A stretch of 64,000 bases of DNA. Source: Candidatus Electrothrix scaldis (lineage in GTDB: Bacteria; Desulfobacterota; Desulfobulbia; Desulfobulbales; Desulfobulbaceae). Positions 33,021 to 61,665 of the stretch are shown here, piece after piece. The DNA lies in the NCBI GenBank assembly GCA_033584155.1, contig CP138355.1, forward strand, positions 1,999,501-2,063,500, given 5' to 3'. The stretch's first letter is position 1. Every line of letters begins with the position of its first letter. A model generated the notes under the pieces. The model searched no databases, was not told the DNA's origin, and was given only the letters and a program-made list of their open reading frames with translations. The position numbers and the translations under genes were made by a program.

Positions 33021-33196
33021 TATATAACCCAGGACGTCCCGGAGTGTCATTGTGACATGGGTACATAAATGGAGATCGCTTTGGCTTTATCGTCATAACC
33101 CAGGACGTCCCGGAGTGTCATTGTGACAATTGTTCTAATCAGAATGGAGTGGAAAGAAATGTCATAACCCAGGACGTCCCGGAGTGTCATTGTGAC
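33021..33196 (-). CRISPR. CRISPR array 1: 3 repeats, 2 spacers
   Basis: 36-bp repeats (starting GTCATAACCC, ending TCATTGTGAC on the + strand, with GGACGTCC in the centre) at 33021, 33092 and 33161; spacers of 35 and 33 bases. The leftmost repeat has TAT instead of GTC at its edge, marking the old, distal end. The leader lies on the right, so crRNA is transcribed on the - strand. The ends GTCA/TGAC are inverted, allowing a small stem for Cas6. Confidence 0.97.
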
Positions 33197-33500
33197 TCTG
33201 CCTCTTTTTGTACCCATGAAATCAGTTCCTTGTCAAGGGCTTTTTGTAGTACCTCCCTTCCCCACCCCCTTTTCACCTCTATTTTGCACGAGGTCCTACA
33301 CCGTGTTGGTTTTGTCGAATAATAACGTAAACTCAATAAGATATTTATATTCCGAAAAGTTAGTTTAACTGCTTGATTCAAAAGGGTTTCTCCTAATTTT
33401 TTCCCGAAATAACCCCATTTTCCCTTTTTGCAGGCAAAAACAGCCCTCAATTGCCCAAAAAACGACCCAGAATTTTTTGAGACCAATATTTAAACCGAAT
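33197..33500 (-). promoter_or_regulatory. CRISPR leader copy 1 with candidate promoter
   Basis: Starts right at the last repeat of array 1 and is ~190 bases near-identical, then ~100 bases weaker, to the leader of array 3 (36889-37200). On the - strand it contains TTGACA (33231-33236) and TACAAA (33207-33212) separated by 18 bases, which would start transcription at the array edge. An ORF of 99 codons crosses it, but the differences between copies are mostly amino-acid-changing, so I treat it as non-coding. Confidence 0.75.
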
Positions 33501-33523
33501 ATTAAAGAAATACCCGGAATTTC

Positions 33524-33598
33524 GTAGGGGCAGACCTGTGTGTCTGCCCGGTATAACCGGGGAGGAAATTCAGGGTACACACACAGGTGCGCCCCTAC
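33524..33598. repeat. Dispersed GC-rich repeat between arrays 1 and 2
   Basis: Runs from GTAGGGGCAGACCTGTGTG to GTGCGCCCCTAC; inverted ends as in the element at 32884. A partial relative lies at 37266-37305 beyond leader 3. Confidence 0.65.
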
Positions 33599-33620
33599 AA
33601 ATCGCAATAAATTCGGCATA

Positions 33621-33650
33621 GGGTAGGTGTACGGCGCGCCGTGCCCCTAC
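33621..33650. repeat. Palindromic repeat at the distal end of array 2
   Basis: GGTGTACGGCGCGCCGTGCC core, nearly identical to 32985-33016. Both copies are followed by AGAGG and the TAT-edged terminal repeat, so the junction itself is duplicated. Confidence 0.7.
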
Positions 33651-33655
33651 AGAGG

Positions 33656-34377
33656 TATATAACCCAGGACGTCCCGGAGTGTCATTGTGACGAAATGCGA
33701 TGGCTGATGCTTCATCCTCATGGTCATAACCCAGGACGTCCCGGAGTGTCATTGTGACGGTAAGCAACCTAAAAGAACCTGCAATGTAACGTCATAACCC
33801 AGGACGTCCCGGAGTGTCATTGTGACATGGTAAGAAGGCGGAAAAAATAAGGGAGTTTGTCATAACCCAGGACGTCCCGGAGTGTCATTGTGACTATTGC
33901 AGATTCTAGCCCCTTCAGATTTAGAAGTGTCATAACCCAGGACGTCCCGGAGTGTCATTGTGACAAGATATGTTCCCCTACGAAATTGATGAAAAGTCAT
34001 AACCCAGGACGTCCCGGAGTGTCATTGTGACATAACAACGACCAGCGCAAAGCTTCCATTGGGACTGTCATAACCCAGGACGTCCCGGAGTGTCATTGTG
34101 ACAGAAAAATTGTCATGTTGGACGAGGGACTGGAGTCATAACCCAGGACGTCCCGGAGTGTCATTGTGACATTTAAATTGTTGGCGATTGCGATGGTTTG
34201 TATTGTCATAACCCAGGACGTCCCGGAGTGTCATTGTGACAAAAAAACGCAGTAACAGTAGTGCCACAAAAGTCATAACCCAGGACGTCCCGGAGTGTCA
34301 TTGTGACATGATGAAGATGACGACGAATACGATGATGAAGAGTCATAACCCAGGACGTCCCGGAGTGTCATTGTGAC
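33656..34377 (-). CRISPR. CRISPR array 2: 11 repeats, 10 spacers
   Basis: Same 36-bp repeat at 33656, 33723, 33791, 33859, 33929, 33996, 34067, 34135, 34205, 34272 and 34342; spacers of 31-35 bases, all different. The terminal repeat at 33656 is edged TAT, as in array 1. The leader side (right) is only ~65 bases long before it meets the cas6-RT reading frame, whose stop codon is 36 bases from the first repeat. The array can therefore be transcribed from its own promoter and by read-through from cas2/cas6-RT. Confidence 0.98.
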
Positions 34378-34442
34378 TCTGTCTCTTTTTGTACCCATGA
34401 AATCAGTTTCTTGTCAAGGGCTTTTTGTAAACCTCCCCTCCC
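34378..34442 (-). promoter_or_regulatory. Truncated CRISPR leader (copy 2) fused to the 3' end of cas6-RT
   Basis: About 65 bases homologous to leaders 1 and 3, from the last repeat to the CTCCC run at about 34441, where similarity stops and RT coding sequence begins. It keeps the candidate promoter: TTGACA at 34412-34417 and TACAAA at 34388-34393 on the - strand, 18 bases apart. The last eight codons and the stop of cas6-RT lie inside it. Confidence 0.75.
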
Positions 34443-36012
34443 AGGCATGAATATCTAACGGTTGCAAAAGGGTCTTTTCCTCCTGCAAGGAAAGCCCCAG
34501 CGGCTCCAGCAGGATGCGGATATCAGCCAGAGCCACCTCGCCTTCAGTCGGGGAGCGGAGCATAATCACGAAATCATCACCATAGCGCACAACCCGATAG
34601 CCCATTGCAGCCAATTGCTCATCAAAATCATCCAGGTAGAGATTGGAGAGCAGCGGGGAAAGCGGGCTGCCCTGGAGCAGGCCTTTGTCACGGGGGATGA
34701 TGCCTTCCGGTCCGGCAACCTGGGTTCGTATGCATTGCCGCAGAAGCTGGCGCATCCGGGTGTCGGCAAGGGGCAGGACGGCATCCAGCTTGTCCTCCAG
34801 ATTTTGCCAGCAGATCTGGTCGAAAAAGGAGGCGATATCTGCTTTGAGCACGTAGCTGAATCCTTCGTGAAATGCCTCAATGATCCGTTTTTTGGCCATG
34901 TTGCGGGAACGGTGCGGTCGATAGCCAATGACTGCGTCGGTGAATAATTTGTCCAGGACCGGGCTGAGCAGGGTGTTGAGCAGGAAATGAATGAAATGGC
35001 CTTCTGCTGGCAGGATGGCGATACTGCGCAGGCTCCCGTCCTTTTTCGGAATACCGGCATGATGAGCTGGCCCGAGGTTCAGGCGCTGATCCAGCAGGGC
35101 CTGATGGAATTCCTCTTCCGCCTGTTCCGGAGCCAACAGCTCACCGGCAATATCGGTCTCGTGGTCACTCTGTTCCAGGAAGTCACGGCGCAGGCCGAGA
35201 AAGAGGGTGCGGTCAGTGAGCTGCGACTCAAAAAAAACACGGTTATGGACGAGCCGATAATGGCCCAGGCCAAAGGAACTGCGTCTGCCACTGCTGATTT
35301 CTGAGCAGAGCAGGAGAAGGGGATAGACAGGGCTGATGTCGCCCCGGAGATAGAGAGGGCCGACGGTTCCGTTCAGATATTGTTTGCCCTGATTACTGCC
35401 GGAATCCCGTCGGCGTTCATAGTATTCCCAATAGCAGGAGAGCAACCGTAACCCGGCCCAGGTGGCCTCAATGCCGGGCAGATGCAGGTTGAAGGTCCGT
35501 TTGATCCGGGCCTCCAGCTTGCGGAAAAAGATGTCCCGGTCAATGAGATGGCGCTGGCTCCGCTCTTTGGGGGTAAAGGGCAAAGGCGTGATGAAATCCA
35601 GGCAGATTTCCTGTGCGTTGAGCAGGGGATTTTCTTGGAGCAGATCATTCAGGGAGCGGGGGCGGGCAGGCGCATGACTGTGCAGGGCAAAGTTGTTGCG
35701 GGGATTATTCAGGTGTTCGCTGAGTCCGCTGAGAAAGCGGGGGCCGATAGTGTTGTCGCTGCCCGGGAAGACCAGTTCCAGGGGATAGAGTGTGTTTTTG
35801 CGGATGCGTTCGTCCGGCGGTCCTTCCAAGGGGTGATAAAAATATTCATGATGTGCAATGCCTGCCCGTTTGGCAGCCTCTTTGCAAATGGCGGCAAACA
35901 CGGCCAGAGGGTGCTGGCGGGCAAAGGTGTTGCGGGTGTTGCGCAGTTCGAGACGGAGAGTTTGCCAGGAAAGATCAAGCAGGGGCCGGAAACAGGAAAG
36001 GATTTCTTGCAT
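34414..36012 (-). CDS. Cas6-reverse transcriptase fusion, truncated (no Cas1 domain)
   Basis: 532 residues. Residues 1 to ~265 are a Cas6-like RAMP region ending in a Gly-rich SFGLGHYRL loop; it would cut pre-crRNA. Residues ~300-515 are a reverse transcriptase: KKDGSLRSIAILP, KADIASFFDQI (catalytic Asp), GLLQGSPLSPLLSNLYL and RYGDDFVIML (YGDD at 477-480), all intact. Known Cas6-RT-Cas1 proteins continue through the RT thumb into Cas1. Here the frame stops 52 residues after YGDD, the last eight residues (after HAW) being encoded by leader sequence. Cas2 is 27 bases upstream. cDNA synthesis may be possible; spacer integration would need a Cas1 from elsewhere. Confidence 0.85.
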   Translation of the reverse strand: MQEILSCFRPLLDLSWQTLRLELRNTRNTFARQHPLAVFAAICKEAAKRAGIAHHEYFYHPLEGPPDERIRKNTLYPLELVFPGSDNTIGPRFLSGLSEHLNNPRNNFALHSHAPARPRSLNDLLQENPLLNAQEICLDFITPLPFTPKERSQRHLIDRDIFFRKLEARIKRTFNLHLPGIEATWAGLRLLSCYWEYYERRRDSGSNQGKQYLNGTVGPLYLRGDISPVYPLLLLCSEISSGRRSSFGLGHYRLVHNRVFFESQLTDRTLFLGLRRDFLEQSDHETDIAGELLAPEQAEEEFHQALLDQRLNLGPAHHAGIPKKDGSLRSIAILPAEGHFIHFLLNTLLSPVLDKLFTDAVIGYRPHRSRNMAKKRIIEAFHEGFSYVLKADIASFFDQICWQNLEDKLDAVLPLADTRMRQLLRQCIRTQVAGPEGIIPRDKGLLQGSPLSPLLSNLYLDDFDEQLAAMGYRVVRYGDDFVIMLRSPTEGEVALADIRILLEPLGLSLQEEKTLLQPLDIHAWEGRFTKSP

Positions 36013-36365: not shown

Positions 36366-36888
36366 GTCATAACCCAGGACGTCCCGGAGTGTCATTGTGA
36401 CAGAAGAAGAAGAAGTCTCAAAAACGATGATTACGGTCATAACCCAGGACGTCCCGGAGTGTCATTGTGACGCAAAGTTAAGATTGTTGGCGATTGTGGC
36501 GATCAGTCATAACCCAGGACGTCCCGGAGTGTCATTGTGACGGAACAATATGGTGATGAAAATGGGAGTGAGTCATAACCCAGGACGTCCCGGAGTGTCA
36601 TTGTGACATTTACTAAAGGCTGATAAAGCAAAGAGGGAAAGTCATAACCCAGGACGTCCCGGAGTGTCATTGTGACACAAGTGGGTAAACTTCTTGATTA
36701 TACCGATTTTTAGTCATAACCCAGGACGTCCCGGAGTGTCATTGTGACAAAAAAATCGCAATATTAAGTGCTGTATTAGTATTGTCATAACCCAGGACGT
36801 CCCGGAGTGTCATTGTGACGATACCGAGGCTACGATCGAAACGGCTGATAACGTCATAACCCAGGACGTCCCGGAGTGTCATTGTGAC
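36366..36888 (-). CRISPR. CRISPR array 3: 8 repeats, 7 spacers
   Basis: Repeats at 36366, 36436, 36506, 36572, 36641, 36713, 36784 and 36853, identical to those of arrays 1 and 2; spacers of 30-36 bases. Here the distal repeat has the normal GTC edge. The leader follows on the right (36889 on). Transcription on the - strand would continue into cas2. The spacer at 36472 shares a 14-base core with the array 2 spacer at 34171. Confidence 0.98.
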
Positions 36889-37200
36889 TCTGCCTCTTTT
36901 TGTACCCATGAAATCAGTTCCTTGTCAAGCACTTTTTGTAGTACCTCCCTTCCCCAACCCCTTTTTACTTCCATTTTGCACGAGGTCCTACACTGTGTTG
37001 GTTTTGTCGAATAATAACGTAAACTCAATGAGATATTTATATTCTGAAAAGTTGGTTTAACCGATTGATTCAAAAGGGTTTCCTGAAGAATTTTTCTGAA
37101 AAAGGCTCATTTTTCCCATTGGCAGGCAAAAAGGCCGTCAAAATGCCCGGAATCCGACCCAGGATTTTTTGACGCCAAGAATATAACAGAACATTAAATA
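36889..37200 (-). promoter_or_regulatory. CRISPR leader copy 3 with candidate promoter
   Basis: Near-identical to leader 1 over the first ~190 bases. Candidate - strand promoter: TTGACA at 36923-36928, TACAAA at 36899-36904, 18-base spacer. The remaining ~250 bases up to the divergent gene at 37447 are AT-rich with a partial GGGGCAAGACCTGCG repeat at 37266 and should also carry that gene's promoter. Confidence 0.75.
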
Positions 37201-42601: not shown

Positions 42602-43522
42602 TTACCTGGTGGAGAGGGCTGACTGTATGGCCTCGGCCATGCGTCTGAGGTTCAGTTCGATATCTTCCGCTAAGGGATCCAGCACCGCCAGCTTACCCTT
42701 GATGGCCTGAGCAACGGTCTGGGCATTTCTTCGGTCAAATTGGGGCTGGACAAAGAGGACCTTGATTTTATCAGCTTTTGCATGTTTGACTAAGGCATAG
42801 AGCTGTTTCGGGGAGGGGGCTTTTCCTTCGATCTCCACCGCCTCCTGATGCAACCCGTAAGCATGGGCAAAATAGCCGAATGCGGGATGAAAAACAAAGA
42901 ATGTTGCTCCCTGAAACGGAGCAAGCTGCTGGGTGATTTCCTGATGGAGCAGGGTTAGTTTTTCCTGCAGGATGCTGAAGTTTTGTTGGTAGGTGGGGGC
43001 ATGTTCCTGGTCGGCTGCGACCAGAGCTTTTGTCATGACAGTCGCCATTTTCTCTAAATTTTGCGGGTTGAGCCAGACATGCGGATCTGCATTTTTTTCA
43101 AGATGCTTTATTTTTTCGTGCCTGTGTTCGTCATGTTCTTCGTGCTTTCCTTCTTCATGATGATGCTCTGCTATGGCGATCCTTTTGATGTCCGCTGTTA
43201 TGTCGATGAGCTGGAGGCTCTTTGCATCATTGCTTTTTATTTTTCGAGCGATCTCTCGCTCAAAGGGCATGCCAAGGGTAAAGTAGAGGCGGGAGCGAAA
43301 AAGAGCTGTCATCTTGTCCGGGCTTGGCTGGTAGGTATGCGGTTCCTGGCCTTTGTCCAACAAAACCTGGGTACTGACAAGGTCTCCGCCGAGTTGTTTG
43401 ACCAGCCATTTTTGTGGGGCAATGGAAACGAAAACCGGCAGCGGCTCTGCGTGGGCTGGAAGCGCAACGGTTACGAGAAGAAATAAAAAAGTCAGTGTAA
43501 AGGTTCTTGTTTTTATAAACAT
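42602..43522 (-). CDS. znuA: zinc/metal ABC transporter substrate-binding protein
   Basis: 306 residues with a cleavable signal (ending PAHA). ZnuA/cluster A-I fold: VSIAPQKWLVKQLGGD, EPHTYQPSPDKM (metal His), a His/Glu-rich flexible loop at about 117-140 (EHHHEEGKHEEHDEHRHEK), then DPHVWLNP and FHPAFGYFAHAYGL. The loop favours zinc. Its 5' end plus upstream region is duplicated at 44677-44945. Confidence 0.92.
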   Translation of the reverse strand: MFIKTRTFTLTFLFLLVTVALPAHAEPLPVFVSIAPQKWLVKQLGGDLVSTQVLLDKGQEPHTYQPSPDKMTALFRSRLYFTLGMPFEREIARKIKSNDAKSLQLIDITADIKRIAIAEHHHEEGKHEEHDEHRHEKIKHLEKNADPHVWLNPQNLEKMATVMTKALVAADQEHAPTYQQNFSILQEKLTLLHQEITQQLAPFQGATFFVFHPAFGYFAHAYGLHQEAVEIEGKAPSPKQLYALVKHAKADKIKVLFVQPQFDRRNAQTVAQAIKGKLAVLDPLAEDIELNLRRMAEAIQSALSTR

Positions 43523-43660
43523 TTTGTAGAAGAAAGGGAGGGTATGAGCAAGGGTATCGTTATGTCATTATGGGTGATCCCGACAGAATCGGGATAGGTT
43601 GGAAGAGATTATACATGAAATAAGAGGTGGTGTCATCTTTTGTGCTTTGGCGGGGTATGG
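43382..43660. repeat. Direct repeat copy A (znuA 5' end + upstream region)
   Basis: 279 bases, nearly identical to 44677-44945 in the same orientation. It covers the first ~47 codons of intact znuA and the intergenic segment with the ATCCCGA/TCGGGAT hairpin at 43577-43595. After GGCGGGGTATGG the copies diverge. Confidence 0.88.
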
Positions 43661-43721: not shown

Positions 43722-43868
43722 TCAGTGCGAAAGCCAGACAACCAGCTCAAACTGCTGCACGGTTGCTTTATCTCTGCGCCATATCCTCCAGACGGTGCGG
43801 CTGTGGCGGACAAGCAGGTCTTTCAGGCGGACAGGGTAATAAAGGGCTCTTCGCATATTAGTGGGGAA
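43722..43868 (-). pseudogene. Remnant of an NTP_transf_5-like gene (C-terminal end only)
   Basis: Reading the - strand up to the TGA at 43722-43724 gives LYYPVRLKDLLVRHSRTVW and a VVWLSH end. This aligns with FYYPVRLKEIFQRHFHKTL and IDWLSH at the C-terminus of the intact gene at 45011. Upstream the match slips into another frame (REHLSP) and then vanishes. It is a degraded paralogous 3' end, not an intact gene. Confidence 0.75.
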
Positions 43869-44089
43869 AGATGCTCGCGTAATTCAGGCTCTCAATCCCG
43901 GAATATTGTATCACATGTCGCGATAATCCTTCGTTACGGCTTGTGAACGCATAATGTTTGGAGAGAGCAGTTAAACGAAAAAGGCTTTTCTCCCCACTAA
44001 TCTGCGATGAGCCGAAAAACATTGCAGTATGTACAATGCAGCCATATAATGAAGCACAAACTATGCATACAATACATACAGGAGACTCC

Positions 44090-44281
44090 ATGCGAACAAC
44101 ATTAAATATTGATGACGCATTATTTGAAGAAGCCCGGCTTCTCACAGGTATTACAGAAAAAACCGCCCTTGTGCGCAACGGTCTTCAGGCACTGATCGCA
44201 CGGGAAAGCAGTCGTCGTCTCGCCCGCCTCGGCGGGAGCGAACCAAGGCTGAAAAGTATACCCCGGCGGCAGTCGGAGTAG
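44090..44281 (+). CDS. vapB: VapB-type antitoxin
   Basis: 63 residues: an RTTLNIDDALFEEARLL ribbon-helix-helix head followed by KTALVRNGLQALIARESSRR and a basic tail. This is the short VapB form that pairs with PIN toxins. AGGAGA Shine-Dalgarno. Upstream bases 44030-44080 contain TGTACA and TATGCATA palindromes that could be the operator. VapC follows after five bases. Confidence 0.85.
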   Translation: MRTTLNIDDALFEEARLLTGITEKTALVRNGLQALIARESSRRLARLGGSEPRLKSIPRRQSE

Positions 44282-44286
44282 CAGGC

Positions 44287-44655
44287 ATGATTCTGGCGGA
44301 TACATCCGTATGGATCGACCACCTGCGCAAGACGGATGACCTGCTGGTGTCGCTGCTCAACTCCGCGCAAGTCGCCATTCATCCTTTTATCATCGGCGAA
44401 CTGGCCTGCGGCAATCTCAAAAATCGAACTGAACTGCTCGCCCTGTTCAAAAAACTACCTGCGGTTCAATCTGCCCGGCAGGAAGAAGTGCTGTATTTTA
44501 TTGAACACAATCAGCTCATGGGCCGGGGCATCGGATTTATTGATGCCCATCTTCTCGCCTCTCTTGCCTTGAGCAGCCATACCCTGCTTTGGACACGCGA
44601 CAAACGTCTCGCCCTTGCAGCTCAACAGCTCGGCATAGCGTTCAATGAAGATTGA
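44287..44655 (+). CDS. vapC: VapC-type PIN-domain toxin ribonuclease
   Basis: 122 residues. The four acidic PIN residues are visible: Asp5 (ILADTSVWID), Glu38 (IIGELACG), Asp86 (GFIDAHLLAS) and Asp105 (WTRDKRL). Complete, so an active Mg-dependent RNase (often against tRNA) held by VapB is likely. The pair lies between duplicated DNA blocks. Confidence 0.9.
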   Translation: MILADTSVWIDHLRKTDDLLVSLLNSAQVAIHPFIIGELACGNLKNRTELLALFKKLPAVQSARQEEVLYFIEHNQLMGRGIGFIDAHLLASLALSSHTLLWTRDKRLALAAQQLGIAFNED

Positions 44656-44676: not shown

Positions 44677-44945
44677 GTCTCCACCGAGTTGTTTGACCAG
44701 CCATTTTTGTGGGGCAATGGAAACGAAAACCGGCAGCGGCTCTGCGTGGGCTGGAAGCGCAACGGTTACGAGAAGAAATAAAAAAGTCAGTGTAAAGGTA
44801 TAAACATTTTGTAGAAGAAAGGGCGGGCATGAGCAAGGGTATCGTTATGTCATCATGGATGATCCCGACAGAATCGGGATAGGTTGGAAGAGATTATACA
44901 TGAAATAAGAGGTGGTGTCATCTTTTGTGCTTTGGCGGGGTATGG
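44677..44945. repeat. Direct repeat copy B containing a znuA 5' fragment
   Basis: 269 bases matching 43382-43660. The copy of the znuA start carries a 10-base deletion just after the ATG region, which shifts the frame, and the rest of znuA is absent. The ATCCCGA/TCGGGAT hairpin is kept at 44861-44879. It ends 65 bases before the stop of the intact nucleotidyltransferase gene. Confidence 0.85.
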
Positions 44946-45010
44946 TGATGGGGGTTTTTACAGAGAGGGGGCAGTGGAGCAGGAAAGTAGAGAGCTTTGT
45001 CGTGCGGGTG

Positions 45011-46264
45011 TCAATGCGAGAGCCAGTCTATCAGGCCTAGTTGTCTGTCAACTAGGCTGAGGGTTTCTTTATCTTGGTACAGCAGCCGAAGTGTCTTGTG
45101 GAAATGTCTTTGAAAAATTTCTTTTAGACGTACAGGATAATAGAAATAGACTCGTGAAGAAGCTGGAGATATGTAGTACATTTGTGCAAGCTCTTTTCGA
45201 GGAGGAAACGTTCTTTCGAGGAGGATGGATATTTTTTGCAAAGAAGATTTCTTTTTCCAGAAATGTAAAAGCTCCTTCGGATAGATAACTTCCTTATCTG
45301 AAGTTGCAAAGATTTGCTCTTTAGCCCAGATGATTGCTTGGTTATCCGGTTTGTCAGGTTTAAGTGCTTCCAGTACCCACTGTGGTATATCTGCATTTAA
45401 AAGGGATTTTGCGAGGTGGAGTGAGAGATAGACGGGATTGCTTGCTCTCCAGCTGCGGGCGCGAAGCTGCAACTCATCCCAATTTATTTCGTCATTGTGA
45501 TAACGGATAACTTCCCGGATGTCGCAGAAGGACTTCAGGCCGTTTGTAAACATATGATGCATAGATGTGTGTAAACACAGGTGCAGCAAGAGATCTTCAG
45601 GGGATAATGTCAATGTTTCAAGTCCAGTAGTCTCAGTTGACCATGCTCTTGTCCATAATCCATCTATATCAATCTTATATGATTGTGCCTCTTCCGCAAT
45701 CGAAGAGTGTACGTCTAAGCATATTTTACCATTTGTTAGGTCAGGAAAATGTTTAAAATGTGGTGGAAGCTGATAATTATTGGTTATGAGCTTTACCTGT
45801 TTCTCATTCGTGACGGTGAAACCGATTTGAAATAGCAGGTTGACTGATTGTCTTAGGTCTTTTTTTTTGACCATTATGTCAATATCGCTCATCGGGCGAA
45901 GAGCGATATTACCATAAATAATTTTGGCAAGATGCGCTCCTTTGAGAAGGATGACCGGAATATTTTCATCCTGTAATACCTTGAGGATTTTTGATAGTTC
46001 GCTATACAGGCTGGTATTCCACCAGACAGTCTCTAGATATGCTGATCTTAATGCCTGGGTAATGCTTGCCGGGACAATTGGTTCAAGGTGCGGCGTTGAT
46101 AAAGTTTGATAAAGTAGAGAAGTGACTCGGTGTCTATTTGCTTTATGCACAACGGCATCCAAGTCTTCTTTTGAAAGCTGTGCAAGCTTTACAGGGATCA
46201 ATTCGGCTGATTCCTTTCGAAGAAAAAAGAGCAGCAGCTCGTTGGCCGTCTTGGATTCCATCAT
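45011..46264 (-). CDS. nucleotidyltransferase family protein (NTP_transf_5)
   Basis: 417 residues from the ATG at 46264 (the frame is open from 46312, inside the previous gene). The catalytic core is IPVILLKGAHLAKIIYGN followed by RPMSDIDIMVKKKDL, the DxD of the nucleotidyltransferase fold. A helical C-terminal half follows. The family recurs in peptide-modification clusters (with PqqD, HprK-like and S26-like genes), where its role is poorly known. Last gene of the RiPP-like operon. Its 3' end has a degraded paralogue at 43722. Confidence 0.82.
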   Translation of the reverse strand: MMESKTANELLLFFLRKESAELIPVKLAQLSKEDLDAVVHKANRHRVTSLLYQTLSTPHLEPIVPASITQALRSAYLETVWWNTSLYSELSKILKVLQDENIPVILLKGAHLAKIIYGNIALRPMSDIDIMVKKKDLRQSVNLLFQIGFTVTNEKQVKLITNNYQLPPHFKHFPDLTNGKICLDVHSSIAEEAQSYKIDIDGLWTRAWSTETTGLETLTLSPEDLLLHLCLHTSMHHMFTNGLKSFCDIREVIRYHNDEINWDELQLRARSWRASNPVYLSLHLAKSLLNADIPQWVLEALKPDKPDNQAIIWAKEQIFATSDKEVIYPKELLHFWKKKSSLQKISILLERTFPPRKELAQMYYISPASSRVYFYYPVRLKEIFQRHFHKTLRLLYQDKETLSLVDRQLGLIDWLSH

Positions 46265-46268
46265 TCTG

Positions 46269-46748
46269 TCATAAATTTTGTTTCCAGATGCGTTGAAAAC
46301 GTCGATACGCACCCCTTTGAAACCTTCGTAAAGTCAAGGTTCCTCTGTAAAGATAAAATCCGAGTGGATTGGTATGCAACCAGAGCAGACCTGCCAACCG
46401 CCAAAATCCTCTTTCAAATATACGTTTGCAGTCTTTTCGCCAAGCGGTAGTGACACGGCCTAATACATTTTCTTTGGTGAATGGTCCTTCGCTCCAGGAC
46501 TGTGCATCACCCCGAATAAAGAAAGAGGCTCCATTTATGCTGATGATGCGGTGCAGTACATAGCGTTCTTCTGATTGTACTAAGACCATGTCGCCAAGCC
46601 GAAGCTGCCGTGCCGGTTTAAGCTCTACCGTGTCGCTGTCATGGAGAAAAGGCATCATGCTGGAGCCATTCACTGTCATGCGGACATGTTGCCCTCGTTT
46701 TAGTGCAGCATGGATGAGCGGCATCAGCTCTCGGGCCGGAAGGATCAT
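46269..46748 (-). CDS. S26-like signal peptidase family protein (S24/S26)
   Basis: 159 residues. VNGSSMMPFLHDSDTVEL carries the catalytic Ser motif, followed by GDMVLVQ and YVLHRIISI; RGDAQSWSEGP closes the catalytic domain. There is no clear N-terminal membrane span, unlike LepB, so it may act in the cytoplasm. Probable leader-cleaving protease of the peptide cluster. Overlaps the HprK-like gene as ATGA. Confidence 0.75.
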   Translation of the reverse strand: MILPARELMPLIHAALKRGQHVRMTVNGSSMMPFLHDSDTVELKPARQLRLGDMVLVQSEERYVLHRIISINGASFFIRGDAQSWSEGPFTKENVLGRVTTAWRKDCKRIFERGFWRLAGLLWLHTNPLGFYLYRGTLTLRRFQRGAYRRFQRIWKQNL

Positions 46749-47620
46749 ATGACCGAGCGTACCAGCGGGATCACTGCCCGCTCAGGTCGGCAGCGCAGGC
46801 GGTAAACGGGCACCTGTTTGAGGAGAGTGTTGAGATTATCCAGAGCGCGTTGTATCAGTGTGCTATCCCAATAAGGTAAGAAAGCACGGGCAGCAAGCTG
46901 CGGGGCTGCTACTGCCGGACTCAGCGGTTCAACAGCGTTTTTCGATGCTTGTTCAAGAAGAACAAGGGCGGATAGCGGCACGGCATGGTTGCGGGCGATG
47001 TCAGACGTACCACCCCACGGCGTGCCGTAACACATCGCTCCAGTTTTATTTGCCCGGACAGCGATGCGGTCGTCATTCATAGATATCACGCCCAGCTCTT
47101 GATTCCACAGCTCAAGCTGCGTGCTTTTTCCTGCCCCGGAATGGCCGACAAAGACAATGCCCTTGCCGTTGTCATCCAAACCGGAGGCGTGAAAGACTAG
47201 CCCACCAGTGCAAAGAATGGCTGTGCGGAGAATCAACTCGCCTGCACCAATATTGAGCAGGCTTTGCCAAAGCGGGCTGCGGCGGTGCTCGGTCAAGGTC
47301 AGGTCATCCCAACCAGCATTGGCCTGTAGAACGGCTTGGGGTTGCGTTTCCTGATATCGCAAAGTGGCATAGCAGTCTGTTCCTTCTCGGTGCATTGTCC
47401 AGATTGAGCCGGGATCATAGATTAGGTCACCGCATGGAGCGGGCGGCTCTGCGCTTTCCTGCCAGAACAGTGATACGCTGACCAGCGGTTTTTCTTTTTT
47501 GTTCGCAACAAAAAATGGCCCCAATCGTTCTTCAATACCAAGTTCTGCAATGGAAAGCGGGCTGGTCAGCTCAATCTGAATCCCGGCAATGCGAATGGGA
47601 ATTCTATGCAGAGTGGGCAT
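46745..47620 (-). CDS. HPr kinase-like protein of a peptide-modification cluster
   Basis: 291 residues from the ATG at 47620 (AAGGAA upstream), overlapping the radical SAM gene. The P-loop is FVGHSGAGKSTQLELW near residue 155, and ISMNDDRIAVR matches the HprK catalytic Asp region. The N-terminal ~140 residues are beta-rich. Family members beside PqqD and NTP_transf_5 genes are thought to modify peptides or sense precursors; the substrate is unknown. Confidence 0.8.
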   Translation of the reverse strand: MPTLHRIPIRIAGIQIELTSPLSIAELGIEERLGPFFVANKKEKPLVSVSLFWQESAEPPAPCGDLIYDPGSIWTMHREGTDCYATLRYQETQPQAVLQANAGWDDLTLTEHRRSPLWQSLLNIGAGELILRTAILCTGGLVFHASGLDDNGKGIVFVGHSGAGKSTQLELWNQELGVISMNDDRIAVRANKTGAMCYGTPWGGTSDIARNHAVPLSALVLLEQASKNAVEPLSPAVAAPQLAARAFLPYWDSTLIQRALDNLNTLLKQVPVYRLRCRPERAVIPLVRSVI

Positions 47621-48683
47621 AGCGTTCCTTGCGGGCACGGGCGATTTCGCAAAGATACGGAACCGGCTTGGTCAATGTACCGGTTTCCAATAAAGACCAT
47701 GCAGGACAGCGCGGGCAATAACTACGTATTTCACAGGCAAGGCAGGTGGGATCAAGTGGCGGAGCAGAATCCACAAAATGCTGTACTTGCTTCCATGCTG
47801 CACTGAAGCCGATGTCAAGTGGGTGAACGGCAGGCTGTGTCAGATCAATGCAGGTATTCATTGCTCCGTATGGATTGATAACAAAAGTAGCTTTTCCAGC
47901 TTGACAGTAAAAATTTTTTTCACTATTCATGTCGCCGGATGATTCTTTCGTTACGGTCTCCGTTAACTCTGTGGACGAAATTAGGTTGTCAGATTCCAAT
48001 TTGATACATTCCGCTGCAGACATCCGCCAGTCAGTTGCTTCTGACGATCCGCCATCTCTTCTCTTGCTAATCAACCAACTAGCGGAAAACGGTAGCCCCT
48101 CGTCATGCGCTATTTTTCGCATTGCTTCCAATTCGTTGACGTTGCGGCGGGTGAGCGTGGATTTCAGCCCCAAAGGAATGCGTTGCCTGACAAGAGCCTC
48201 AATCCCGGCACGGCAACGGGCATAACTTCCCGGAACTCCGGTGACAGTCTCATATGTTTCTGCGGTTGCGCCGTAGAGTGTTACTTCGGTCCAGCTGGGC
48301 GGGGCTTCAGCCAGACGGGAAGCAATAGATTCGGTGATTAACGTGCCATTAGTGAATAATGTGAGGATGAATCCAAGGCGGGTGAGAGGTTGATATATTT
48401 CGAAGAAGTCAGGCCGCAGAAAGACTTCTCCACCGGTCAACAGAAGAAAGACCATGCCGCTGTCTTTTGCCTGTCGCGCCAGCTCAAGCCATTGTTCCGC
48501 TGTAAGCTCCGTGCTTCGCCGGACGGCATCAGTGGCAGAATGACTAATATAGCACATCCGACAGGAGAGATTACAGCGTTCGGTCAACTCGAAGGTTCCC
48601 TTGACTGGCTGGTGGACAGCAGCAGCCAGTTTGTACAGCTCTCGCACCAAGGGGACATAATCAGAAGGCAGGGACTGTGTCAT
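47604..48683 (-). CDS. radical SAM/SPASM peptide-modifying enzyme
   Basis: 359 residues. The radical SAM cluster motif is CNLSCRMC (CX3CX2C) near residue 37, followed by the GGE motif (LLTGGEVFLRPDFFE). A C-terminal SPASM-like region has spaced cysteines (FYCQAGKATFVINPYG, TCLACEIRSYCPRCPAWS, YLCEI) for auxiliary Fe-S clusters. It would install a radical-made crosslink or epimerisation on a peptide held by PqqD. Overlaps pqqD by four bases. Confidence 0.88.
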   Translation of the reverse strand: MTQSLPSDYVPLVRELYKLAAAVHQPVKGTFELTERCNLSCRMCYISHSATDAVRRSTELTAEQWLELARQAKDSGMVFLLLTGGEVFLRPDFFEIYQPLTRLGFILTLFTNGTLITESIASRLAEAPPSWTEVTLYGATAETYETVTGVPGSYARCRAGIEALVRQRIPLGLKSTLTRRNVNELEAMRKIAHDEGLPFSASWLISKRRDGGSSEATDWRMSAAECIKLESDNLISSTELTETVTKESSGDMNSEKNFYCQAGKATFVINPYGAMNTCIDLTQPAVHPLDIGFSAAWKQVQHFVDSAPPLDPTCLACEIRSYCPRCPAWSLLETGTLTKPVPYLCEIARARKERYAHSA

Positions 48684-48946
48684 TGCACAAGTAGCTCCAT
48701 CCTCGTTATCTCGTCGATGAACGTTTGCACATCAGCACGAGCACGCTGCGAATCAACATCGAACTCCTCTGCCACAGCAGCGGTAAGGTCATCTAATGTG
48801 CGTTCTTCGGCCAGCAGTTCCCACACACAAGCTGCCGTTTCGTTCAAAGTGACGAGACCATTCATATCCATCACCTGTGAACCAATCGGCACCAGCAGTT
48901 TTTCACCGGCGATATTTTGTAAGATAAAGTCAGATTTTCTTTTCAT
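48680..48946 (-). CDS. PqqD-family peptide chaperone (RiPP recognition element)
   Basis: 88 residues with the PqqD fold pattern: a strand pair (DFILQNIAGEKLLVPIG), VMDMNGLVTLNETAACVWELL and a helical AVAEEFDVDSQRARADVQTF. PqqD domains bind RiPP leader peptides and present them to radical SAM enzymes. Its ATG follows directly on the stop of the 52-residue ORF at 48947. Confidence 0.85.
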   Translation of the reverse strand: MKRKSDFILQNIAGEKLLVPIGSQVMDMNGLVTLNETAACVWELLAEERTLDDLTAAVAEEFDVDSQRARADVQTFIDEITRMELLVQ

Positions 48947-49105
48947 TTATGAATCCATCTGACCACTATTGCAACCAGGAGTAACCCCGCTAGTATCTTT
49001 ATCACATTTCGTTAATCTTTCTTCTATCTTTAGAGGTATAAAGGTTGCCTTTGGAGGTTTGTAAGGTTTTTTCTGCTTGTTCTGTGGCTCGTTCTGCTTT
49101 TCCAT
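48947..49105 (-). CDS. candidate RiPP precursor peptide, 52 aa
   Basis: ATG at 49105 with a strong AAGGAGG Shine-Dalgarno; TAA at 48947-48949 touches the pqqD start. The N-terminal part is charged and leader-like (EKQNEPQNKQKKPYKP), followed by PPKATFIPLKIEERL. The C-terminal ~20 residues hold Cys at 34 and 45 among Asp, Thr, Ser, Gly and Asn, a plausible core. The KPY..P....I.L..EERL..C layout resembles known radical SAM-modified precursor peptides. Not in routine ORF calls because of its length. Confidence 0.72.
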   Translation of the reverse strand: MEKQNEPQNKQKKPYKPPKATFIPLKIEERLTKCDKDTSGVTPGCNSGQMDS

Positions 49106-49170
49106 CTTCCTTCCTCCTTGAAGAAAGTTGTACTGAAATCAACCGACGCTGCTGCATCTCTCATTGATCA

Positions 49171-49524
49171 TTATTCATCCGTCCCTGGCTGCTCCGCCTT
49201 CCTCTCAGGCCGCTTCCGCTCGCTTGTCCTCGTGCCGCCGACCATATCGTATTCTGGAGAGTCAGCCCCGAAAACTCCCTTGACCGCCGCCCGCACCTGC
49301 ACCATATGATCGCTCAGATGCCCGGCCTGCTCCCCTTTCCGATCGACCAGCCGCGTCCGTTCAACGTTGACGGCATCCAGTTCATCAACCGCAGTTTCCA
49401 GCCCGGCAATCTTCGTTTCCATATCCACAGCCTTCAACCCGTCAGGAAGACGATCATCAATTTTCTCCAGGGCCTTCTTTATCTCGTTTGCTTCCTGCAA
49501 TAATTTTGGTACGCTTTTGCTCAT
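49171..49524 (-). CDS. hypothetical coiled-coil protein, 117 aa
   Basis: AAGGAG Shine-Dalgarno nine bases before ATG. Heptad-like helices run over residues 8-85 (LLQEANEIKKALEKI, ETKIAGLETAVDELDAV), then a charged disordered tail (RTSERKRPERKAEQ). No signal peptide or known domain. It lies 65 bases upstream of the RiPP precursor ORF on the same strand and could share its transcript. Confidence 0.65.
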   Translation of the reverse strand: MSKSVPKLLQEANEIKKALEKIDDRLPDGLKAVDMETKIAGLETAVDELDAVNVERTRLVDRKGEQAGHLSDHMVQVRAAVKGVFGADSPEYDMVGGTRTSERKRPERKAEQPGTDE

Positions 49525-49603
49525 AATATGTATCTCCTTTTCTTTTTGTCGTAGGCTTTCGATTAAAAGGCGACCGGTCTCCCTAGAAAGCCCTCTGTCC
49601 GCC

Positions 49604-49771
49604 TTTTAATTCCCACGGCCCGGATTTAAAAGAAAGGGCACTGTATTTTAATTCCCGGAATCCGACGTTAAAAGAATAAGCACCGCATTTTAAACCCAGG
49701 AACTCAGCTTTAAAAGAATAAGGGGCACCTTTTAATTCTCATGACCCGCCTTTAAAAAATGATTGCTCGTT
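49604..49771. repeat. Four 42-bp tandem repeats with inverted TTTTAA / TTAAAA halves
   Basis: Units start at 49604, 49646, 49688 and 49730, exactly 42 bases apart. Each begins TTTTAA, has a variable GC-rich middle, and carries TTTAAAA or TTAAAAG about 22 bases in. Stop codons in every frame make coding unlikely. A regulatory, replication-related or structural role is open. Confidence 0.75.
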
Positions 49772-50308
49772 TTCTTTTCACTGCCTGAGAGATTGTTTTG
49801 TTGAACAAGCTGATATTTACTTTATTGCGATATAATAATTTATACTGAACATGGTTTTATAATTACCGCAAGTAAAAAAACGATATATCAATAAGTTGAA
49901 AACGATTCATGTTCTCAAAAAAGCCCGGATGGCCCTTCGTCGCAAGGATAAGCCCGTTTTTTACTCCCAAAGAAAACTTACGGTTTATGTACAAGGCCCG
50001 AGAAAGAGACTTTGCAGTATAAAAAAACTGTACGTTTGTTTTTTAAGAAAAAAAGTGAGATAGGACAGGCAAGGGAGGACGGCTTCAAGAAAGAACGCTG
50101 TCTGCACCGAAGTCTGGGCAGTTACCAGCTGCGGGCAGTCGGTAGTGAGATGGTGGGATCAGTTGCGGTTGAATAATAAGGGAGCGATTGACCTGCTCTG
50201 TTCGATCCTCTGTTGTAAAGCTTTTCTGGGATTGGTCAGGACGCCTACTGACTCAACCCCGAGATCAGTAGGCAGAGGGCCGAGGAGTAAAAAATAATGG
50301 TGTTGTGC
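49772..50308. other. Intergenic region without supported genes
   Basis: About 540 bases, AT-rich on the left. A 56-codon frame starting near 49895 has no Shine-Dalgarno or family likeness. I see no terminator or RNA gene here. Confidence 0.35.
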
Positions 50309-51442
50309 TCAGGCCTCTTCATTAGAAGGAGGGGGGAGGTCGATATCCGGAGTTTTCAGGGCTATTTCGCCCGCAGCAAAATGCACAGTTCGTTGTGGAA
50401 AGGGGATCTCAATGCCGTGTTCTTTAAAGGCCACATGGATCATCTTGAGCAGGTTATGGGTCTGGACTCCTCGCTGGGCCGGTTCCTCCACCCAGACCAG
50501 CAGTTGCAGGTGGATGGCTGATTCCCCGAAGCTGCGCACCCTGACTCTGGGTTCTGGTTTTGTGACTAAGGCGGTGTTTGACTCTGCCACTTGCAGGAGT
50601 ACCTTTTCCACCTCGCGAAGATTACTGGCATAGCTCACGCCGACATCAATGCGGATTCGGTAATTGACATCAGGAGCGGACTCATTGATGATTTTACTGG
50701 TCGACATGATGGAGTTGGGTATAGTGATCATCACGTCGTCTCTGGTTTTGATCTTGGTGGAGCGAATGCCCAGCTCCACGACCTCACCACGTTCTCCGGT
50801 TCCGAGGATTATATAATCACCCACCTTATACGCAGCATCAGTGAACAAGGCAATGCCGCCGAAGAAGTTAGCCAGGGTATCCTTGGCTGCCAGGGCAATG
50901 GCGATACCGACAATACCGGCTGAGGCAAACAACGGGGTCAGATTAACCTCCCAAATGATCAGGCCCCAGATAATTCCGATAAAAAGAAGAATAATCCGAG
51001 AAATATTCTTCAGCATGTAGAACCTGGTTCTGTCAAATTTTCGCAGTGCCCAGCCGGAATTGTTTTCGTTCATGACAGTGATTTCCCGAATCAGGGAGAT
51101 CCACCAGACAACGAGAATCAGTGTCTTGATTAGATTAGGCAGGGCGGTATTCCAGGGCGGGGCAAAGGCTGGTTCCAGAAGCGTTGCATGAAGAATGCCG
51201 AGGAGGAAAACAGACAGAACTGCCGGGTGGCGAACAAAACGGACAAAGTGTTCGTCCACGTCAAAGCTGGTGCGGATGGAAATGGGCAGCAGGATCCGTT
51301 GGATGATAATATCAGCGACCTTGCTTAGAATAATATAAAAGCAGATAACCGTGGCACGCTGTCCGAATTGATACTGATCAAGGTCAATCAGGGTTGTGCT
51401 GAACCAATGGGAAAGGGCTTGCGGCAGGATGCTGAGGTCCAT
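50309..51442 (-). CDS. MscS-family mechanosensitive ion channel
   Basis: 377 residues. Four or five membrane spans in the N-terminal half. The pore-lining segment LFASAGIVGIAIALAAKDTL continues into the MscS beta domain (GDYIILGTGERGEVVELGI, ITIPNSIMSTSKIIN), and the C-terminal alpha/beta region ends near residue 365. Longer N-terminus than E. coli MscS. It opens under membrane tension on hypo-osmotic shock. Confidence 0.92.
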   Translation of the reverse strand: MDLSILPQALSHWFSTTLIDLDQYQFGQRATVICFYIILSKVADIIIQRILLPISIRTSFDVDEHFVRFVRHPAVLSVFLLGILHATLLEPAFAPPWNTALPNLIKTLILVVWWISLIREITVMNENNSGWALRKFDRTRFYMLKNISRIILLFIGIIWGLIIWEVNLTPLFASAGIVGIAIALAAKDTLANFFGGIALFTDAAYKVGDYIILGTGERGEVVELGIRSTKIKTRDDVMITIPNSIMSTSKIINESAPDVNYRIRIDVGVSYASNLREVEKVLLQVAESNTALVTKPEPRVRVRSFGESAIHLQLLVWVEEPAQRGVQTHNLLKMIHVAFKEHGIEIPFPQRTVHFAAGEIALKTPDIDLPPPSNEEA

Positions 51443-59689: not shown

Positions 59690-60382
59690 TTATAAGTCAC
59701 TATGTGGTCTTGGCGATGGTTTCCCACGATTATCAAAAGTACTTGGTTGATAAGTGCCTTCAAATTTTGCAATCAGTGCTTTTCTTACCCGATCATAACT
59801 TTTAAACAGTTCATACCAAATTGAAAAGTGTCCATCTGAATGAGCACACTCTACGATCATTTCCAACATTTCATCTGATTGTTGTTTCTTCCAGTTATCC
59901 ATTGATTTATTTGCTTTTAACCAGGCTGACTGGATAGCAATCCAACGCTTATCACCAGGGGTAGGTTCTTTGTTGGGTTTCCCTGGAAATTTATCAAGTC
60001 CTAGTAAGTCTATAGTATTTTGGGCCTTAATTTTTTGCTTGTAAGACAGTGAGGATTTAGGCTCAATGATGTCTGGTGTTGGATGGTATTGAAACGCATT
60101 AATTGTATTGTCAATATCTGGCCAATAGTAATCTGTTCTTGATGAATTTTTGTCGCTTTTATTGCTTTTCCCATTGCAATGGAAGCATGCTAACAGGAAA
60201 TTATCCCAATCCAGTTTTGCGCCTCCTTTGGATAACGGAATAACATGGTCGATATTAATGCTATTCATCACTTTCATTTCGCAGTATGAACAACACCAAT
60301 CAATTTTATTGGCCAAATCATTTCGGGCATCTTGATAGTTTGTATATACTTGAGGAGCACTCCCTTTGTCTACCGGTCTCAT
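59690..60382 (-). CDS. HNH endonuclease, PtuB-like (Septu-type defence pair)
   Basis: 230 residues. The N-terminal MRPVDKGSAP start resembles the TIGR02646/PtuB group. HNH core: CCSYCE (30-35), INIDHVIPLSKGG (His46), DNFLLACFHCNGKSNK. CxxC pairs bind the structural zinc. Its ATG overlaps the stop of the upstream AAA ATPase by four bases. In Septu systems the ATPase PtuA and nuclease PtuB together block phage; here this is inferred from domain pairing. Confidence 0.8.
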   Translation of the reverse strand: MRPVDKGSAPQVYTNYQDARNDLANKIDWCCSYCEMKVMNSINIDHVIPLSKGGAKLDWDNFLLACFHCNGKSNKSDKNSSRTDYYWPDIDNTINAFQYHPTPDIIEPKSSLSYKQKIKAQNTIDLLGLDKFPGKPNKEPTPGDKRWIAIQSAWLKANKSMDNWKKQQSDEMLEMIVECAHSDGHFSIWYELFKSYDRVRKALIAKFEGTYQPSTFDNRGKPSPRPHSDL

Positions 60383-61665
60383 ATCGAATTGTCAGTATTT
60401 TTCAATAATTTTTCTTGTTCAATAATAGCCATAAATGCGGTATCCTTTGCAAAAGGAAGCATCGCTTTATCCAGTTCCGATTTTAGCTCAGGTGTATCAG
60501 TTCCTTCTTTTACAGCTTTGTAATATTTTGTTGCAATGTTAAACATGTGCTGACGACTTTTGCTCCACTGTGGATTTTTAACATCTTGGATCTCCTCAGC
60601 AATATCCTCAATGCTCAGATTGTTTCCTTGGCCTTTAGTGGCTCTCGCATTATCTTTCAATTTGATAAGTTGATCAAATTCCGTTTCCTGAATTAAAAAC
60701 GGCGAATGAGTCGTGGTTATAAATTGAATTTTTGGGAATGTTTTTTTAAAACCTGCGATTATTTTTCTTTGCCACTCCGGGTGTAAGTGTAAATCCAGTT
60801 CATCAATCAAAACAATTCCAGTCGTTTCTTGTAAGGCATCTCCCTTTAGGTGAGGATTCAATGTAACGCACTTAAAGGCGATATCAGCAATCAAAGCAAA
60901 GAAATTTCTAGTGCCATCACTTAAATGTGCAAAGGGGAGGGTTCTACCATCTTTTAAAGTAATTTTTAATCCTTCGGGCTTGTCAGGATCAAATTCAAAA
61001 TAAATATTCTCGCAGTCAGGAATGTTGTTGACAATAGCTTCTTTTACTAAGGCGTAATTGATATCTGTAGTGCCTTTTTGGATTTTTGCTAACTCTTTTC
61101 CTTTGAACCATTTAATAAACTGCTTAAAGGTCATTTTTGCTTTTAAGCATTGGTTGTAGGCTCGAAGACGAGAAGCAATTTTAGGATTCTTATTTTCTTT
61201 TTTTCTTGTATTTCTGGCTTCATCAAATAATCTGCCTGTAGCATAATAGGCTAAAATAGGAAGATTTATTTGCTCACCATTACGGATATGATAGTCATAC
61301 TCGGAGCCAATTTTTTTTATAGACATGGCTCCTCTTGTTAAGGTTTTACTCTTAAAACTTGTTAATTCTCTTTTCCATGCTATTTCTTTCCCATTAACAA
61401 CTCCAGATGCAGAGACGCAAACAGGCCATAGAAATTCCTCTGAATGTTCAAAGGTTTTAATATGTACATCCTTAGGTAAAATATGTCTTGAATCTGTATT
61501 TTTTATACCTAAGAAGAGAGATCCCATAGCAACAGTAAGAGCTTCTAGTATCGCAGTTTTACCACTTCCATTGTCTCCGATTATGAGATTGAATCTACTG
61601 TGTAGAGAAATTACAATCTCTTGATATCCTCTGAAGTTTTTTAGAGCTAATTCTTTTATTATCAT
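60379..61665 (-). CDS. AAA-family ATPase, PtuA-like (Septu-type defence pair)
   Basis: 428 residues of the RecF/SMC-like ABC class. ELALKNFRGYQEIVISL start, Walker A IIGDNGSGKTAILEAL at about 28-43, a long variable insert, LPFAHLSDGTRNFFALIADI as the signature region, Walker B GIVLIDELDLHLHPEWQ, and TTTHSPFLI as the H-loop. A short C-terminal helix follows. AT-richer than its neighbours, which fits acquisition by transfer. Confidence 0.83.
   Translation of the reverse strand: MIIKELALKNFRGYQEIVISLHSRFNLIIGDNGSGKTAILEALTVAMGSLFLGIKNTDSRHILPKDVHIKTFEHSEEFLWPVCVSASGVVNGKEIAWKRELTSFKSKTLTRGAMSIKKIGSEYDYHIRNGEQINLPILAYYATGRLFDEARNTRKKENKNPKIASRLRAYNQCLKAKMTFKQFIKWFKGKELAKIQKGTTDINYALVKEAIVNNIPDCENIYFEFDPDKPEGLKITLKDGRTLPFAHLSDGTRNFFALIADIAFKCVTLNPHLKGDALQETTGIVLIDELDLHLHPEWQRKIIAGFKKTFPKIQFITTTHSPFLIQETEFDQLIKLKDNARATKGQGNNLSIEDIAEEIQDVKNPQWSKSRQHMFNIATKYYKAVKEGTDTPELKSELDKAMLPFAKDTAFMAIIEQEKLLKNTDNSI

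Follow-up and report, generated by a model that had tools for sequence, protein, structure and literature searches.

A six-gene operon of Candidatus Electrothrix scaldis predicted to build a radical-SAM-modified cysteine peptide with a lasso-style phosphorylated tail

A 64,000-nt stretch of the Candidatus Electrothrix scaldis genome (contig CP138355.1, positions 1,999,501 to 2,063,500; hereafter the window) contains a minus-strand operon in which a 52-aa open reading frame (ORF) is followed by pqqD, a radical S-adenosylmethionine (SAM)/SPASM gene, an HprK-like gene, an S24/S26-like protease gene and an NTP_transf_5 gene. We propose, with a probability of roughly two in three, that it produces a radical-SAM-modified Cys peptide, a ribosomally synthesized and post-translationally modified peptide (RiPP), bearing a lasso-style phosphorylated and possibly glycosylated tail. 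The gene set, the conservation of the precursor family, the intact catalytic residues and the statistics linking kinase and serine are observed, and from them we infer the chemical steps, their order and the role of the product. The C-terminal Ser of the peptide, overlooked in an initial annotation made from the letters of this DNA and its ORFs, is the key feature of the system, which joins radical-SAM RiPP logic to a lasso-type tail kit. The operon comprises the following elements.

49112..49118, minus strand: Shine-Dalgarno sequence AAGGAGG, 7 nt before the peptide ATG (context CAAGGAGGAAGGAAGATG).
48947..49105, minus strand: candidate precursor peptide of 52 aa (MEKQNEPQNKQKKPYKPPKATFIPLKIEERLTKCDKDTSGVTPGCNSGQMDS), with a YxPPKAxFxPxxxxERL leader, a two-Cys core and a C-terminal Ser.
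48680..48946, minus strand: PqqD-like RiPP recognition element (RRE) of 88 aa (PF05402, 2.3e-17).
47604..48683, minus strand: radical SAM/SPASM peptide maturase (Radical_SAM, 1.6e-19), with Cx3Cx2C and seven SPASM Cys.
46745..47638, minus strand: HprK-like P-loop kinase, likely start 47620, with His150, Lys171, Asp189 and Asp190.
46269..46748, minus strand: S24/S26-like protease (Peptidase_S24, 2.1e-6), with Ser30, His66 and Asp81 (Sec11 type).
45011..46312, minus strand: NTP_transf_5 nucleotidyltransferase (PF14907, 4.3e-62), with an SDIDIMV (DxD) motif; possible start 46264.

The initial annotation had described a short ORF with an AAGGAGG site abutting pqqD and four enzyme genes following pqqD, and coordinates and family matches confirm this, with all six genes in the places given to them. 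The peptide stop codon TAA touches the pqqD ATG (48946), and overlaps of 4 nt join pqqD to the radical SAM gene and the HprK-like to the S26-like gene. The radical SAM and HprK-like genes overlap by 35 nt from a GTG start or by 17 nt from the likelier ATG at 47620, and the S26-like and NTP_transf_5 genes by 44 nt from GTG or not at all if translation starts at the ATG at 46264. The PqqD, Radical_SAM, Peptidase_S24 and NTP_transf_5 matches pass Pfam cut-offs. Scans for sigma-70 promoters and terminators gave results no better than chance.

Very probably, the short gene encodes a genuine precursor that the radical SAM enzyme modifies. The nearest radical SAM relatives lie in a Syntrophobacteraceae metagenome-assembled genome (MAG; locus L077, 59% identity) and in locus L032 (67% over the surviving part of a truncated gene), and both loci carry a short ORF with a window-type leader upstream of pqqD. 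The leader stretch reads PYKPPKATFIPLKIEERL in the window, PYEPPKADFAPISLVERL in L077 and NYEPPKVIFVTNKPEDRL in L032, with the common pattern YxPPK..F....[E/D]RL. Because its position and leader are conserved in other genomes, the short ORF goes beyond chance. The initial annotation had tied its proposal to the conservation of this ORF, and the ORF is indeed kept beside pqqD in L077 and L032. In a tree the window and L077 radical SAM proteins form a clade of their own with full support and a long stem. The window peptide has two Cys (Cys34 and Cys45) and ends in Asp-Ser, the last residue being Ser52. The peptides tested fall under none of the Pfam or NCBIfam models. The genome also has a paralogous locus (L031), which encodes a 66-aa peptide after its radical SAM gene, and the Cys-Cys spacing is equal in the L031 core CDKLGAPISDGC and the window core CDKDTSGVTPGC. 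This second operon of the general type (G000:C1:64888-67441; L031, L161), in which the 66-aa peptide lies between the radical SAM and HprK genes, is kept in most members of the genus sampled. A spurious window ORF, with enzymes that work on a substrate encoded elsewhere, would fit the shortness of the ORF and its lack of a database family; we consider this extremely improbable, given a leader, position and Cys core conserved across genomes and a strong ribosome-binding site.

A genome-wide scan selected by radical SAM protein yielded 80 loci, many of them on short contigs; the window protein alone returned no matches as a query, and an alignment of radical SAM proteins recovered the loci. PqqD was found in 67 loci, HprK in 66, S26 in 47, a detected peptide in 46 and NTP_transf_5 in 19. 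Members of the family share a [YW]xxP...VxLxx(E)xVLxxC leader, a Cys core and PqqD, radical SAM, HprK-like and S26 neighbours. The precursor family was seen in about 60 loci besides the window, L077 and L032, and the peptide lies after the radical SAM gene in most loci and before pqqD in the window type. By record title, the sampled relatives and many of the 80 loci span at least a dozen phyla, including Nitrospirae, Aminicenantes, Omnitrophota, Cloacimonadales, Chloroflexi, Gemmatimonadetes and Verrucomicrobia, with further members in Chlorobiaceae, Clostridia and one Methanomicrobiales archaeon. The search for homologous short ORFs proposed by the initial annotation thus reveals a peptide family that accompanies the enzyme set in many phyla.

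Peptides were sought with a leader-only hidden Markov model (HMM) to avoid bias, and counts were taken from held-out loci. Ser is the last residue in 33 of 42 held-out peptides, and Thr in 2 more, against a background of 11% Ser among other short ORFs of the same loci (a simple binomial gives P of about 6e-24 but overstates independence since the peptides are related). The residues preceding the terminal Ser are variable except for a common Gly at -2. In clostridial loci, where peptides were chosen by motif and position and are barely detected by the leader HMM, all eight distinct peptides end in Ser and their cores are unrelated. This near-universal terminal Ser beside a kinase gene suggests that the kinase may phosphorylate the peptide tail. 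The statement in the initial annotation that modifications go beyond one crosslink is strengthened, because the peptides of loci with a kinase have a terminal Ser, which lasso HprK-like kinases are known to target; the chemistry itself (thioether, phosphate or sugar) is predicted.

Most of the exceptions to terminal Ser have either an altered kinase motif or no detectable kinase, and some probably reflect fragments with a broken reading frame (L130) or weak hits (L109). Peptides ending in G, Y, P or Q are encoded at four Anaerolineae-type loci (L081, L089, L090 and L100), together with kinases that have GEDQ at a site where the kinases of other loci read xDDR, xDER, xEER or NGDR. In the subfamily of the window itself, the L077 peptide ends in Q and the L032 peptide in G, and neither genome yielded a homologue in a profile search for the kinase that was positive in all five control genomes. 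This pairing of kinase absence with non-Ser ends is suggestive only, because the L077 MAG contig stops after the S26 gene and the L032 locus is degraded. The terminal Ser could instead be kept for another reason, being nucleotidylated or esterified directly by the nucleotidyltransferase or an unseen enzyme, or read by the protease or the radical SAM enzyme, with the HprK-like protein acting elsewhere. An NTP_transf_5 gene is often nearby, and the direct activity of the HprK-like family rests on prediction; the Ser is also present where the locus shows no NTP_transf_5 and is lost where the kinase is missing or altered, and we regard such a role as unlikely.

The predicted enzymes have features suited to tail phosphorylation of a radical-SAM-modified peptide. 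The structural model of the PqqD protein best matches the lasso RRE TbiB1 with its leader (5v1v, E 2.9e-4), and this TbiB1-like model together with the PF05402 match bears out the RRE prediction that the initial annotation had called for. In an AlphaFold model of a read-through fusion, the RRE is well folded, and the peptide, modelled at low confidence (predicted local distance difference test, pLDDT, 50–66), forms no strand. The PPKATFIPLKIEERL stretch had been put forward as the recognition sequence; leader conservation favours this assignment, but the docking model, uninformative for the peptide, does not place the stretch on PqqD. RREs are known to recognise motifs of the W/Y/LxxP type (PMC12710340). 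The radical SAM protein carries its Cx3Cx2C motif at C37, C41 and C44 and SPASM Cys at C260, C278, C314, C317, C323, C326 and C345, and its nearest solved sequences are SkfB, a thioether maturase, and PqqE.

By sequence, the matches behind the HprK assignment lie below threshold (Hpr_kinase_C 0.035; TIGR04355 5.8e-9, under its cut-off). The model of the protein (mean pLDDT 90) adopts the PEPCK/HprK P-loop kinase fold, with Foldseek matches of 2.5e-7 and 1.1e-5 to phosphoenolpyruvate (PEP) carboxykinases and HprK and a VIA Z of 14.5 against PEP carboxykinase (240 residues, root-mean-square deviation 4.6 Å). The His-Lys-Asp-Asp set of the window kinase comprises His150, Lys171 and Asp189-Asp190; in the family the His and Lys are conserved and the Asp pair is DD, DE or EE in most members. 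In the S26-like protein Ser30, His66 and Asp81 are invariant in 16 homologues, with SEC11 the best solved match, and this S24/S26-like protease is the probable leader peptidase.

We envisage that PqqD would hold the leader through the YxPPK..F....ERL stretch and that crosslinks, most likely thioethers, would be introduced into the Cys-bearing core by the radical SAM/SPASM enzyme. The HprK-like kinase would phosphorylate the side chain of the C-terminal Ser52, the NTP_transf_5 protein may then decorate the phosphate with a hexose or nucleotidyl group in a PsmN-like manner, and the Ser-His-Asp S26-like protease would cut off the leader.

The tail-modifying steps have precedents among lasso peptides. 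PadeK and ThcoK use a His-Lys-Asp-Asp motif to place a phosphate on the C-terminal Ser of a linear lasso precursor, SyanK polyphosphorylates, and the nucleotidyltransferase homologue PsmN is needed for the hexose on the phospho-Ser of pseudomycoidin (PMC9266682). Lasso systems with tail kinases (paeninodin with PadeK, ThcoK, SyanK, and pseudomycoidin with PsmK and PsmN) resemble the operon in their RRE protein, Ser-ending precursor, YxxP-type leader, HprK-like kinase of His-Lys-Asp-Asp type and optional nucleotidyltransferase. By contrast, the operon has no B2 transglutaminase-like peptidase or cyclase, and it has a radical SAM/SPASM enzyme, an S26-like protease and a Cys-bearing core. In the whole genome no lasso B2 peptidase (PF13471) scores above cut-off, the one weak partial match falling in a ~500-aa ORF elsewhere, and no asparagine-synthetase-like cyclase occurs among the ORFs beside the operon, unlinked copies not having been searched. 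A lasso cluster with a missing or shared cyclase would account for the lasso PqqD models being the best NCBIfam matches for the RRE, and some lasso clusters do carry kinase and nucleotidyltransferase genes (PMC9266682); with the NCBIfam lasso cut-offs unmet, no B2 model above cut-off genome-wide and no cyclase beside the operon, it is barely credible. We therefore reject a lasso assignment, as the initial annotation had done.

The radical SAM part resembles other known systems. As in sactipeptides and ranthipeptides (SkfB and similar), it combines CxxxCxxC and SPASM radical SAM features and auxiliary Cys with a Cys core; here the RRE is a separate protein, the kinase, S26-like protease and nucleotidyltransferase are extra, and the thioether is predicted only. 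With pyrroloquinoline quinone (PQQ) and mycofactocin pathways it shares a PqqD-like chaperone, a PqqE-like radical SAM/SPASM enzyme and a short precursor, and differs in its variable Cys cores, its kinase-linked C-terminal Ser and the absence from the operon of any of their other genes. The combination of PqqD, SPASM radical SAM enzyme and protease follows the same logic, and PqqE and mycofactocin radical SAM models are among the nearest by score, so that the radical SAM part might make a small redox cofactor, with the peptide a scaffold from which a few residues are excised. We judge this improbable, more so than another role for the terminal Ser: a cofactor would require an invariant core, but the cores are long, differ in both length and sequence and keep no more than Cys and the C-terminal Ser, and there is no invariant Glu-Tyr or Val-Tyr pair. 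The uncharacterised SynChlorMet system (TIGR04248-TIGR04252, ScmA-ScmF) likewise has PqqD-like, HprK-like (ScmC) and radical SAM/SPASM proteins and a short precursor (ScmA). All matches to it fall far under the curated cut-offs (bits against cut-off: ScmC 32/125, ScmD 18/100, ScmE 95/400, ScmF 90/400), and ScmA (TIGR04252) matches none of the peptides here, has no match in the window genome and nine related genomes and gives only sub-threshold noise in others; membership is therefore rejected.

Several relatives depart from the common layout. Larger variants (L038, L040, L042, L044, L139, L143 and L153) have two or three radical SAM genes and ~660-690 aa ORFs resembling radical SAM/HprK fusions or overlaps, and several have two tandem precursors. 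A plasmid search for HprK returned only distant loci, either lacking radical SAM genes or unannotated. On the Butyrivibrio fibrisolvens plasmid pNP243 (L185, 5651-6646), an HprK-like gene accompanies a 57-aa Cys/Pro-rich peptide ending in Trp, PqqD, an S24/S26 peptidase and ABC transporters, with no radical SAM gene. A second cluster in L091 also lacks a radical SAM gene, and its peptide ends in Asp.

Several points weigh against a radical-SAM-modified peptide with a phosphorylated tail. The product and all enzyme activities are predicted only; the HprK match is weak on sequence alone, and the kinase is likened to PadeK and ThcoK by their published motif. The target of the lasso kinase BsfK is a Ser in the ring instead (PMC10368454), and HprK clusters lacking radical SAM genes carry peptides ending in W or D. 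Kinship among the peptides inflates the binomial significance of the Ser excess, and the GEDQ group may represent one event. NTP_transf_5 was found in only 19/80 loci, many of them truncated, the AlphaFold fusion placed no leader on PqqD, and a crude motif scan showed no dedicated exporter.

The genome consists of a single 5.09-Mb contig, and none of the other seven genomes of the genus has the window-type radical SAM protein. At the syntenic site the closest of these lacks precisely the segment given below, retaining there vapBC and an old NTP_transf_5 remnant.

44800..50368, strand not assigned: segment absent from the sister genome's syntenic site (flanks ~97% identical).

It follows that the operon is an accessory element that was gained or lost recently. 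In the window the remnant, a 51-aa NTP_transf_5 C-terminus (43722-43866, minus strand) 41% identical to the intact gene, lies together with the vapBC pair (43958-44655) between ~280-bp direct repeats (43382-43660 and 44677-44945, 97-99%) that consist of the znuA 5' end and its upstream region, an arrangement that suggests an earlier copy of the operon at this site. Elsewhere in the window, 26-37 kb holds a type III-C-like CRISPR-Cas locus encoding Cas10c, Cmr6 and Cmr1, in which two arrays that share one repeat (33021-34397 and 36366-36908) flank a gene for a Cas6-reverse transcriptase fusion (34414-36012), and 59690-61665 on the minus strand encodes a Septu-like pair of PtuA-type ATPase and PtuB-type HNH nuclease (PADLOC 1e-130 and 1.8e-66).

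A literature search found no description of RiPPs combining radical SAM, HprK and PqqD proteins; subscription journals lay outside it, so prior work is possible. We lean slightly towards a RiPP class that spans many phyla and is so far undescribed. Its members would be Cys peptides crosslinked by a radical SAM enzyme and bearing an obligatory C-terminal phosphoserine, which a nucleotidyltransferase-family enzyme would sometimes extend, and the lasso tail-kinase module would serve as a transferable kit for unrelated scaffolds. The work identifies a widespread and concrete precursor family that has no Pfam or NCBIfam model, and makes a sharp prediction, a phosphate on the final residue of a radical-SAM peptide, for which the joint loss of kinase and terminal Ser provides a natural control. 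If the proposal is correct, C-terminal phosphorylation and glycosylation would be a portable RiPP module rather than a lasso oddity, and what the phosphorylated tail does biologically, also a puzzle in lasso peptides, would become accessible to study in many phyla.

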